Below are positions 847 to 22,982 of a stretch of 40,532 nucleotides of DNA, one piece after another; within the stretch, counting starts at the first letter, position 1; each line of letters begins with the position of its first letter. The notes below the pieces were generated by a model. It ran no database searches. It was not told the DNA's origin and saw only the letters and a list, made by a program, of their open reading frames with translations. The stretch is taken from NCBI GenBank assembly GCA_029858565.1, contig JAOUEV010000031.1, positions 1-40,532 of the forward strand, in the 5' to 3' direction. Both the position numbers and the translations under genes were made by a program. The DNA comes from Nitrospirota bacterium (GTDB lineage Bacteria > Nitrospirota > UBA9217).

Positions 847-875
847 AACGCTCTCCATTCACAGGGTAAATGAAT

Positions 876-955
876 GGGCGCCGTTGTTGCCGGTGAACTA
901 TCCATCGAGCCTGACAGACCCACCTTGCGGTGACTGCTGCAGCGCCCCTCGACGG
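876..955 (-). promoter_or_regulatory. S-adenosylhomocysteine (SAH) riboswitch upstream of ahcY
   Basis: Read on the minus strand, this leader has the SAH riboswitch layout. The stem CCGTCGAG (948-955) pairs with CTCGATGG (902-909). The conserved core GGGCGCTGCAGC follows the first arm, and GGGCGC (942-947) can form the pseudoknot with GCGCCC (876-881) in the conserved 3' block CAACGGCGCCC. Known SAH riboswitches turn on SAH-recycling genes when SAH accumulates, which fits ahcY 30 nt downstream. A possible expression platform is the inverted repeat CCATTCA/TGAATGG (855-861 and 871-877). It overlaps both the last riboswitch strand and the start of the GGAGAG ribosome binding site, so ligand binding could free the site. 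Confidence 0.88.
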
Positions 956-970
956 GGTCACACAATGATT

Positions 971-21016: not shown

Positions 21017-22327
21017 TCAGAGCTTCCCGCTTGCCTGCAGATCTTCGGAAAACAGCTTGGCAGCGCCTTTCGCAGCGCAGAAACTCCCGCACATGGTGCA
21101 GGAATCCTCGTGCTCGGGCATGCGGCTTTTACGGATCGCCTTTGCTTCTTCAGGATAGAGCGCGAGTTCGAACTGTTTCCCCCAGTCGAGATCCCTCCTC
21201 GCCTTGCTCATCTCCCGGTCCCGCTCCCTGCCCTTTTCAGGGTACTTGTTCATATCGCCGATATAGGCCGCGATCTTTGCCGCCTGCACACCCTGGCGCA
21301 CGTCCTCCTCATTCGGCAGCGCCAGGTGCTCTGCCGGGGTTATATAGCAGATCAGGTCGGCGCCGAAGCGGCTTGACTGGGCTGCGCCGATGGCCGCGGT
21401 GATATGGTCGAACCCCGGTGCAACATCGGTTGAGATGGGCCCGAGCATATAGTAAGGAGCTCCATTGCTCATCCGTTTCTGGAGCTGGATGTTTCCCTCG
21501 ATCTCGTCGAGCGGCACATGGCCGGGACCTTCCACCAGCATCTGACATCCCATTTCCCTGCCGATCTCCGCGAGTTCGCAGTTGATGACCAGTTCCTGGA
21601 TCTGCGCCCGGTCGGATGAATCATGGATCGCCCCTGCCCTGAGGCCGTTGCCGAGGGACAGAACTACGTCGTATTTTTTCAGGATCGAGACGACGCGGTC
21701 GAATTTCTCATACAGGGGGTTTTCCCGATTATTGGCAAGCATCCATGCCACCATGCCGACCCCGCCCTTGCTCACCAGACCGCCATACCGGTATCCCTGC
21801 TTCCGCAGACGCTCGATGGTGTAGAGATTGATGCCGCAGTGAATCGCCATGAAGGCTATGCCGTCTGCGCACTGCTGTTCGATCAGGTCGAACAGCATCT
21901 CCTCGTCGAGCTTGTTCGGATCTCCGTATTTCCGTCCTGCCTCGCAGAACGCCTGGTACAACGGGACGTTCCCGACCGGCAGGTCCACGGCAGCCAGCAC
22001 CTCGCGCCGTACACGGTCCAGGTCTCCACCGACAGAAAGTTCCATGAGCGTGTCCGCGCCGGCCGCTTCGGCGATCTTTGCCTTCCGGACCTCCGCAGAG
22101 TAATCGACGATGTCCGAAGATGTCCCGATCGAGGCATTTATCTTGGTGCGAAGTCCCTTTCCGATACCGACAGCTTTCGGTTTCCTGAAAACGTTCCCGG
22201 GAATAACGACTTTCCCTTCTGCAATCATGGTCCTGATGAAATCCGTTGATACGTCTTCCGCAGCAGCGACATCCGCCATCTGCGGCGTAATCAGCCCGCT
22301 GCGGGCACACTCGATCTGAGTTGTCAT
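21017..22327 (-). CDS. bzaF: Radical SAM BzaF/ThiC family enzyme, probably 5-hydroxybenzimidazole synthase
   Basis: The 436-residue protein belongs to the ThiC/BzaF radical SAM family. It has ASIGTSSDIVDYSAEVRKA, MAIHCGINLYTIERL, MLVEGPGHVPLDEIEGN, YYMLGPISTDVAPGFDHITAAIG and a C-terminal iron-sulfur motif CTMCGSFC (C-X2-C-X3-C). ThiC makes the thiamine pyrimidine from aminoimidazole ribotide; BzaF converts the same substrate to 5-hydroxybenzimidazole, a cobalamin lower-ligand precursor. Sequence alone cannot separate the two by eye. BzaF is favoured because the gene is the first of the cobalamin operon, lies directly behind cobalamin riboswitches, and is followed by cobT. I see no TPP riboswitch. 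The ATG at 22327 has AAGGAG 7 nt upstream. Confidence 0.8.
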   Translation of the reverse strand: MTTQIECARSGLITPQMADVAAAEDVSTDFIRTMIAEGKVVIPGNVFRKPKAVGIGKGLRTKINASIGTSSDIVDYSAEVRKAKIAEAAGADTLMELSVGGDLDRVRREVLAAVDLPVGNVPLYQAFCEAGRKYGDPNKLDEEMLFDLIEQQCADGIAFMAIHCGINLYTIERLRKQGYRYGGLVSKGGVGMVAWMLANNRENPLYEKFDRVVSILKKYDVVLSLGNGLRAGAIHDSSDRAQIQELVINCELAEIGREMGCQMLVEGPGHVPLDEIEGNIQLQKRMSNGAPYYMLGPISTDVAPGFDHITAAIGAAQSSRFGADLICYITPAEHLALPNEEDVRQGVQAAKIAAYIGDMNKYPEKGRERDREMSKARRDLDWGKQFELALYPEEAKAIRKSRMPEHEDSCTMCGSFCAAKGAAKLFSEDLQASGKL

Positions 22328-22468: not shown

Positions 22469-22650
22469 GGAATAAGACGTCTCCTGGCTTAGGACAACCT
22501 ACTTGCCGGCCTTCCCATCCCTGCACGGACAGTGGCATAAAGATCAACGAGTCGTTTGCAACTTGTCTCTCGTCGCTGATCCTCGGCTTTCGTTTCCATC
22601 ACAGTTGCGCGACAGCAGGGGAATCGCACCCCTTTCCGTTCTCTTATTCC
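22469..22650 (-). promoter_or_regulatory. Cobalamin riboswitch, second (proximal to bzaF)
   Basis: The minus strand shows the class features. The closing stem pairs GGAATAAGA (22642-22650) with TCTTATTCC (22469-22477). The core reads GGGGTGCGATTCCCCTGCTGTCGC then GCAACTGTGA, followed further on by GATGGGAAGGCCGGCAAG and the B12-box region AAGCCAGGAGACGTC. A family B heptanucleotide repeat (22561-22577) sits in a variable peripheral stem. No T-tract hairpin follows, so control is more likely at translation of bzaF or at a non-obvious terminator. Confidence 0.9.
22561..22577. repeat. Short heptanucleotide array, family B, inside the second cobalamin riboswitch
   Basis: Two and a half units (ACTTGTC, TCTCGTC, GCT) match the repeats found in cbiM, cbiN and cbiET. 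They fall in a variable part of the aptamer between the conserved cores. Confidence 0.6.
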
Positions 22651-22664
22651 TCCGTTTCATTACA

Positions 22665-22712
22665 ATTTTTTGAAAACAAAAAATCCCCGGTCTTCTGGAG
22701 AGGACCGGGGAT
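22665..22712 (-). terminator. Intrinsic terminator between the two cobalamin riboswitches
   Basis: A perfect 10-bp stem ATCCCCGGTC/GACCGGGGAT (arms 22683-22692 and 22703-22712) with a 10-nt loop is followed on the minus strand by TTTTTTGTTTT. The upstream GGTCTTC (22752-22758) is complementary to GAAGACC in the loop and 3' arm, and could act as the antiterminator strand controlled by the first riboswitch. Confidence 0.9.
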
Positions 22713-22767
22713 GAAAGATGATGCTATCAGCCCACACATCGTCTTAACGCCGAAGACCGTGCGAGAA

Positions 22768-22930
22768 ACATCAAGACAGGTCTTCTGGCTTTCCCTCCTC
22801 TGCCGGCCTTCCCAATTGATCTTCAATCAGTGGCTAACGTCGGCAGAGGCATTGACCCCGCTTTCGCGGGACCGGGATCACAGCGGCGGGTCCGCTCCCG
22901 ATTTGCACGGGATTCCCTTCGCCTTGATGT
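22768..22930 (-). promoter_or_regulatory. Cobalamin riboswitch, first (promoter-proximal)
   Basis: On the minus strand the closing stem pairs ACATCAAGG (22922-22930) with TCTTGATGT (22768-22776). The core contains GGGAATCCCGTGCAAATCGG, then GCGGACCCGCCGCTGTGATC, then TTGGGAAGGCCGGC and the B12-box region AAAGCCAGAAGACCTGTC. It is more canonical than the second copy. It begins about 17 nt after the predicted transcription start and is followed by a strong intrinsic terminator, consistent with premature termination when B12 is abundant. Confidence 0.93.
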
Positions 22931-22953
22931 GTCAGCTATTCAATTGTGTTCGT

Positions 22954-22982
22954 TTTATACCACGGCAGGCAGGGCAAGTCAA
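22954..22982 (-). promoter_or_regulatory. Sigma-70-type promoter of the cobalamin operon
   Basis: TTGACT (22977-22982) and TATAAA (22954-22959) lie 17 bp apart on the minus strand, immediately before the first cobalamin riboswitch. The predicted start is near 22947. Confidence 0.75.

Follow-up and report, generated by a model that had tools for sequence, protein, structure and literature searches.

The leader of bzaF, the first gene of a cobamide operon on a contig of a Nitrospirota bacterium (the window, which is the whole stretch of 40,532 nucleotides analyzed), contains, downstream of a single promoter, two complete cobalamin aptamers of different lineages separated by an intrinsic terminator. 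This arrangement probably represents a homotypic bi-mechanism cobamide OFF switch in which the first copy would terminate transcription and the second would act on bzaF by way of a translated relay, the pair having apparently been built from a btuF-type and a btuB-type uptake leader. A narrower version, offered tentatively although it could well be right, is that the switch operates at two levels, the second exerted solely through a 10-codon relay whose stop codon would be paired to the bzaF start, and that it was built from the leaders of lost B12-uptake genes once the cell relied on its own synthesis. All features of the leader and operon described here lie on the minus strand, and their coordinates are given in the direction of transcription.

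The gene bzaF (22327-21017, ATG at 22327) encodes 5-hydroxybenzimidazole synthase, a ThiC paralogue (PF01964, 604.8 bits, together with BzaB/ThiC-like NCBIfam models), and is followed by further cobamide genes identified with Pfam and NCBIfam models (20975-10548), among them cobT, cobQ, cbiB, cbiA, a cbiX-cbiC fusion, cbiM, cbiQ, cbiO, cobA and cbiD. A longer bzaF starting further upstream in the open frame was not adopted, as relatives align from residue 1 and the open extension varies among genomes. The protein shares 82-91% identity with proteins from Nitrospirota and Geobacterales, and the closest named bzaF loci come from Nitrospirota MAGs; the gene occurs in 7 of 14 genomes of the family, whose other ThiC proteins are only ~47-50% identical to it. 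Given the high identity to Geobacterales and Nitrospirota proteins and the patchy presence within the family, bzaF was likely acquired by horizontal transfer. The bzaF of one relative (G004) lies in two frames (L036 936-2217; residues 1-231 and 243-436), reflecting a frameshift or an assembly error.

Upstream of both aptamers lies a sigma-70-like promoter, TTGACT-17 nt-TATAAA (22982-22954), which matches 10 of 12 consensus positions; a stricter promoter scan listed none because the -10 element does not end in T. Similarly placed promoters scoring 9-11/12 precede most of the relatives' first-type switches. A second promoter was rejected, as nothing between or after the aptamers scores above 7/12, and the stretch between them (22757-22651) contains neither an ORF nor a promoter; the two aptamers thus form a tandem of one class served by a single upstream promoter, as an earlier note on this DNA had proposed.

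Both aptamers were recovered in a covariance-model search with RF00174 (gathering score 31.5), in each case at full length (model positions 1-189); the 3.9 Mb genome contains no others. Aptamer 1 (22930-22768; match 22941-22758) scores 76.5 bits (E 2.7e-17), and aptamer 2 (22650-22469, with P1 formed by GGAATAAGA/TCTTATTCC; match 22676-22457) scores 60.8 bits (E 8.6e-13). The boundaries of the aptamers were read by eye from the P1 ends and are identical to those given in the earlier note, whose assignment of two full aptamers is therefore confirmed at the level of the model. Matches to NsiR1 and to the LasI thermometer (28.0 and 27.2 bits) fall below the gathering scores and were taken as chance.

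The two copies are only 50% identical to each other, and a tree of the family's aptamers splits into a termination-type clade and an RBS-type clade, with one window copy in each. Aptamer 1 has a mean identity of 77% to the other termination-type aptamers of the family, and aptamer 2 has a mean identity of 86% to the RBS-type aptamers that precede bzaF or cobT in relatives and of 82.5% to those that precede btuB. Local duplication of one aptamer was rejected on these grounds; since the copies belong to separate lineages, the tandem consists of juxtaposed leaders.

A termination mechanism for the first switch, also put forward in the earlier note, was evaluated using an alignment of 13 termination-type platforms of the family. 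Aptamer 1 is followed by a P13 hairpin (22763-22733; outer helix CGCAC/GTGTG, inner helix GTCTT/AAGAC), in which 98.6% of the alignment cells are paired and two pairs have changed on both sides, and whose loop, CGGCGTT, could form a putative kissing contact, read by eye, with L5 (CGCCG). Behind it the terminator scan finds an intrinsic terminator, CCCCGGTC/GACCGGGG followed by six T (22710-22678), its helix paired in 94.4% of cells; the terminator is thus present as claimed, although the limits first assigned to it (22712-22665) were a few bases too wide. Taken together, P13 and the terminator are paired in 96.5% of cells, with three pairs changed on both sides, and their covariation score exceeds that of all 500 shuffles and of all slid controls. 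The 5' arm of P13, GGTCTTC (22758-22752), can alternatively pair with GAAGACC in the 3' arm of the terminator (22695-22689), which bears out the pairing predicted earlier. This antiterminator, which includes an inner hairpin that takes up the CCCC of the 5' arm, is paired in ~91.8% of cells of the same 13 sequences; the inner hairpin is weaker in the window than in the relatives. Both pairings are kept, and GGTCTTC is thus common to two mutually exclusive helices, one of which would permit and the other prevent formation of the terminator. A role of switch 1 as a transcription-termination step is well supported by this comparison of sequences.

The second switch has a different architecture. 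On the operon strand the terminator scan called no terminator-like hairpin at or after aptamer 2, and the only other match nearby lies on the opposite strand (22575-22587). Instead, aptamer 2 is followed in the minimum free energy fold by a small P13-like hairpin (22465-22450) in which CTTC (22465-22462) pairs with GGAG (22453-22450), a layout that appears the same by eye in the relatives; its loop, GCG, could kiss L5. This GGAG belongs to the AGGAG Shine-Dalgarno sequence, located 6 nt upstream of a short ORF (22443-22411, from ATG to stop; MIISVFTRSS) that the earlier note had missed and that lies between aptamer 2 and bzaF. This anatomy agrees with the proposal that the second switch lacks a terminator and may act on translation, except that the ribosome-binding site placed in the hairpin is that of the 10-codon ORF and not that of bzaF, which has its own Shine-Dalgarno sequence, AAGGAG (22340-22335). 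Similarly, no gene separates the two aptamers, as claimed, but aptamer 2 does not directly precede bzaF. The anatomy supports masking of the relay ORF's ribosome-binding site by aptamer 2, its position placing initiation at the short ORF under the probable control of the switch.

The same layout recurs in seven leaders of the family: AGGAG, a spacing of 5-8 nt, an ORF of 9-10 codons and the stop context GTCATAG, which is kept amid otherwise variable leader sequence. The encoded peptides (MIISVFTRSS, MVVTRYSGSS, MTILFSLLS, MDMLLSSVLS, MVTILFSELS, MNTIPAALS and MKRISICVLS) are not conserved. A derivation of the ORF from a btuB signal peptide is suggestive and is not claimed, as it gave p ~0.003 in 1 of 11 leaders and was not significant in most.

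A possible reason for conserving the stop context is found at the start of bzaF. The stop region of the short ORF, GTCATAGG (22417-22410), is complementary to the bzaF start region, CCTATGAC (22330-22323), which forms the 3' side of a predicted stop/start helix. The partition function gives this helix a probability of ~1 in the window (duplex shuffle p 0.008), and in most bzaF leaders the start codon is paired with an upstream region at a probability near 1. The duplex is stronger than those of shuffled leaders in six of seven bzaF leaders (p 0.004-0.05 or better), always with a partner at about -95 nt, and the pattern GTCATAG-N70-100-TATGACAAC marks the bzaF leader of four of the seven family genomes that carry bzaF, compared with two chance matches in 184 genomes of other families. 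Among bzaF leaders of other bacteria (n=60; mean -10.2, best -20.2 kcal/mol) some duplexes are equally strong. Covariation in the stop/start helix did not exceed that of shuffles, and proof of the helix by covariation was not obtained; its weakness reflects the fact that the 3' side lies within the coding region of a conserved protein and shows little variation. One genome without bzaF (G007) still keeps the motif, before cobT, so that its conservation is not explained by stop/start pairing alone; in G011 the motif is missing before bzaF. On balance, a translated relay that opens the bzaF start is considered somewhat more probable than not.

The following sequence of events is proposed. At low cobamide the P13 5' arm would pair with the terminator 3' arm, RNA polymerase would read through, the short ORF would be translated, and ribosomes reaching its stop codon would melt the stop/start helix, which otherwise would keep bzaF closed, thus permitting bzaF production. 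With cobamide bound, the L5-L13 kissing contact would hold P13, the terminator would form, and most transcripts would end at ~22678. In those transcripts that extend past the terminator, ligand-bound aptamer 2 would stabilize the small hairpin hiding the AGGAG of the relay ORF; initiation at the short ORF would be lost and the bzaF start would stay closed. Two switches in series had been expected to give a sharper response. Simple arithmetic shows this gain to be slight: when two OFF switches act independently with the same affinity, the 90-10% range narrows from 81-fold to 40-fold (effective Hill coefficient 1.19), and switches of unequal affinity sharpen even less. What changes more is the threshold, which is lowered, the midpoint dropping to 0.41 K, and the repression, which is multiplied, as the leak of one step is multiplied by that of the other. 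The benefit of the second switch would thus be tighter repression at a lower threshold, together with silencing of mRNA that is already finished, rather than sharpness.

The comparative search covered 60 related genomes, with loci re-scanned; the counts refer to 14 genomes of the Nitrospirota family and 47 of other families, a tandem being defined by a gap of <400 nt. Tandem cobalamin aptamers are found in 8 of the 14 family genomes and in none of the 47 from other families, a distribution beyond chance; they precede bzaF in four (G000, G003, G004, G006) and cobT in four (G001, G007, G010, G011). The paired Rfam matches are 50-394 nt apart, and the intervening stretch contains the terminator or its first arm in every case. 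Five relatives (L041-L044, L047) display what may be the source of both modules, with the order termination-type switch, btuF, btuC, btuD, RBS-type switch, btuB; RBS-type aptamers stand ahead of btuB in eight family genomes. Between the two aptamers of G010 lies a fragment of the BtuD C-terminus (L039 2414-2521, E 9e-6), showing that in this genome a deletion did join them, and the genome of the window, although 100% complete, lacks btuC and btuB, as does G003. These observations bear out in part the suggestion in the earlier note that a gene was lost between the copies, directly for G010 and only as a possibility for the window itself; other relatives instead show the second module sitting between switch 1 and an intact btuFCD, as in G004 and G007, where the tandem and bzaF or cobT precede btuFCD, and btuB comes afterwards with an RBS-type switch of its own. 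In G008, btuC-btuD is followed directly by bzaF with an RBS-type leader and relay ORF, in the place where btuB would be expected. The history of the locus included both rearrangement and loss of uptake genes.

Some loci carry additional elements. A truncated RBS-type aptamer with a short 5' fragment of bzaF (L047 2655-2820) lies behind the termination-type switch and before intact btuFCD in G006, and is apparently what is left of a second tandem-bzaF locus there. MITE-like inverted repeats (CCACAGAGGACACAGAG..., GCCACATAAAGCACATAAG...) are present in leaders after aptamer 2 in G001 (L033 3453-3640) and between the aptamers in G004 (L036 468-630). A c-di-GMP-I riboswitch (L041 2499-2610, minus strand, 37.3 bits) stands back to back with a termination-type cobalamin switch.

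The main alternative dispenses with the relay: the short ORF would be the decayed remnant of the start of a replaced gene, bzaF would use its own AAGGAG, and switch 2 would act through exposure of the mRNA to Rho or to decay in a plain bi-mechanism tandem. The divergent peptides are consistent with such decay, as are the occurrence of the G008 leader in the expected place of btuB and the presence of RBS-type aptamers before btuB elsewhere in the family; against it, the Shine-Dalgarno sequence and its spacing, the length of the ORF, the position of its stop and its complementarity to the bzaF start have all been kept even though the rest of the leaders diverged, and this explanation is considered rather unlikely. 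It is improbable, moreover, that the tandem is an evolutionary accident in which btuFCD deletion brought two leaders together and just one of the switches is still of consequence. The btuD stub in L039, the missing btuC and btuB of the complete window genome, and an aptamer 2 that is decaying in G011 (34.2 bits) comport with an accident, yet both window aptamers are intact and high-scoring, and the tandem is kept in eight genomes of several genera, including some where it stands beside intact btuFCD (L036, L038), so that loss alone fails to explain it. Very little weight, finally, is given to the idea that the copies sense different corrinoids (adenosyl and methyl forms, or different lower ligands) and that the pair computes on two signals, although the copies are of distinct lineages, bzaF makes a lower ligand so that discrimination would make sense, and corrinoid selectivity is known to be broad in the cobalamin riboswitch class (PMC9600662).

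The bi-mechanism switch with a translated relay proposed here resembles several known systems in part. Tandem AdoCbl riboswitch doublets of the 'pseudo-cooperative' type (Sudarsan et al., 2006), of which 26 are counted in PMC9481103, likewise have two complete cobalamin riboswitches per 5' leader with a terminator after the first; in the window, unlike these doublets, the second platform is RBS-type, the copies represent two lineages, and they are followed by a short ORF. The SAM-II/SAM-V tandem is a bi-mechanism pair in which the first switch terminates transcription and the second controls translation in response to one metabolite (PMC9481103), the same succession as that proposed for the window, where however the cobalamin class is used twice; that review names no cobalamin bi-mechanism case and states that tandems have not been comprehensively evaluated for bi-mechanism control. 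In Mycobacterium tuberculosis ppe2, a B12 switch masks the Shine-Dalgarno sequence of a short uORF, which must be translated for the gene behind it to be expressed (PMC11260477), which corresponds to the proposed relay. The ppe2 leader, however, has a single switch and an overlapping stop/start (AUGA) that serves termination-reinitiation, whereas in the window the uORF stop (22411) and the bzaF start (22327) do not overlap but are 81 nt apart and are proposed to be base-paired; the window would thus work like ppe2 without being a member of that type. In Geotalea daltonii, a cobamide operon with bzaF among its genes is likewise predicted to be under B12-riboswitch control (PMC13119186); the riboswitch described there lies upstream of cbiMNQO and is not a tandem before bzaF. 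Cobalamin doublets, bi-mechanism pairs and relays from a B12 switch to a uORF are each known; their combination appears to be new, as searches of the open-access literature yielded neither a report of tandem switches ahead of bzaF nor one of the combination present in the window.

If the proposed mechanism is right, the window provides a cobalamin-class case of bi-mechanism control and a second, structurally different instance in which a B12 riboswitch works by way of a uORF, and it indicates that biosynthesis can take over the regulatory leaders of uptake genes once those genes are gone. The natural variants in the family, with or without the relay and with single or tandem switches, form a set for asking what a second serial switch buys, a question made worthwhile by the small gain in sharpness predicted by the arithmetic.

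Elsewhere in the window, the cbiX-cbiC fusion of the operon is a single ORF (15989-14862) joining a CbiX-type chelatase to CbiC (precorrin-8X methylmutase), and an SAH riboswitch (RF01057, 56.2 bits; 869-956, minus strand) faces the window edge, the gene it controls lying beyond the window.
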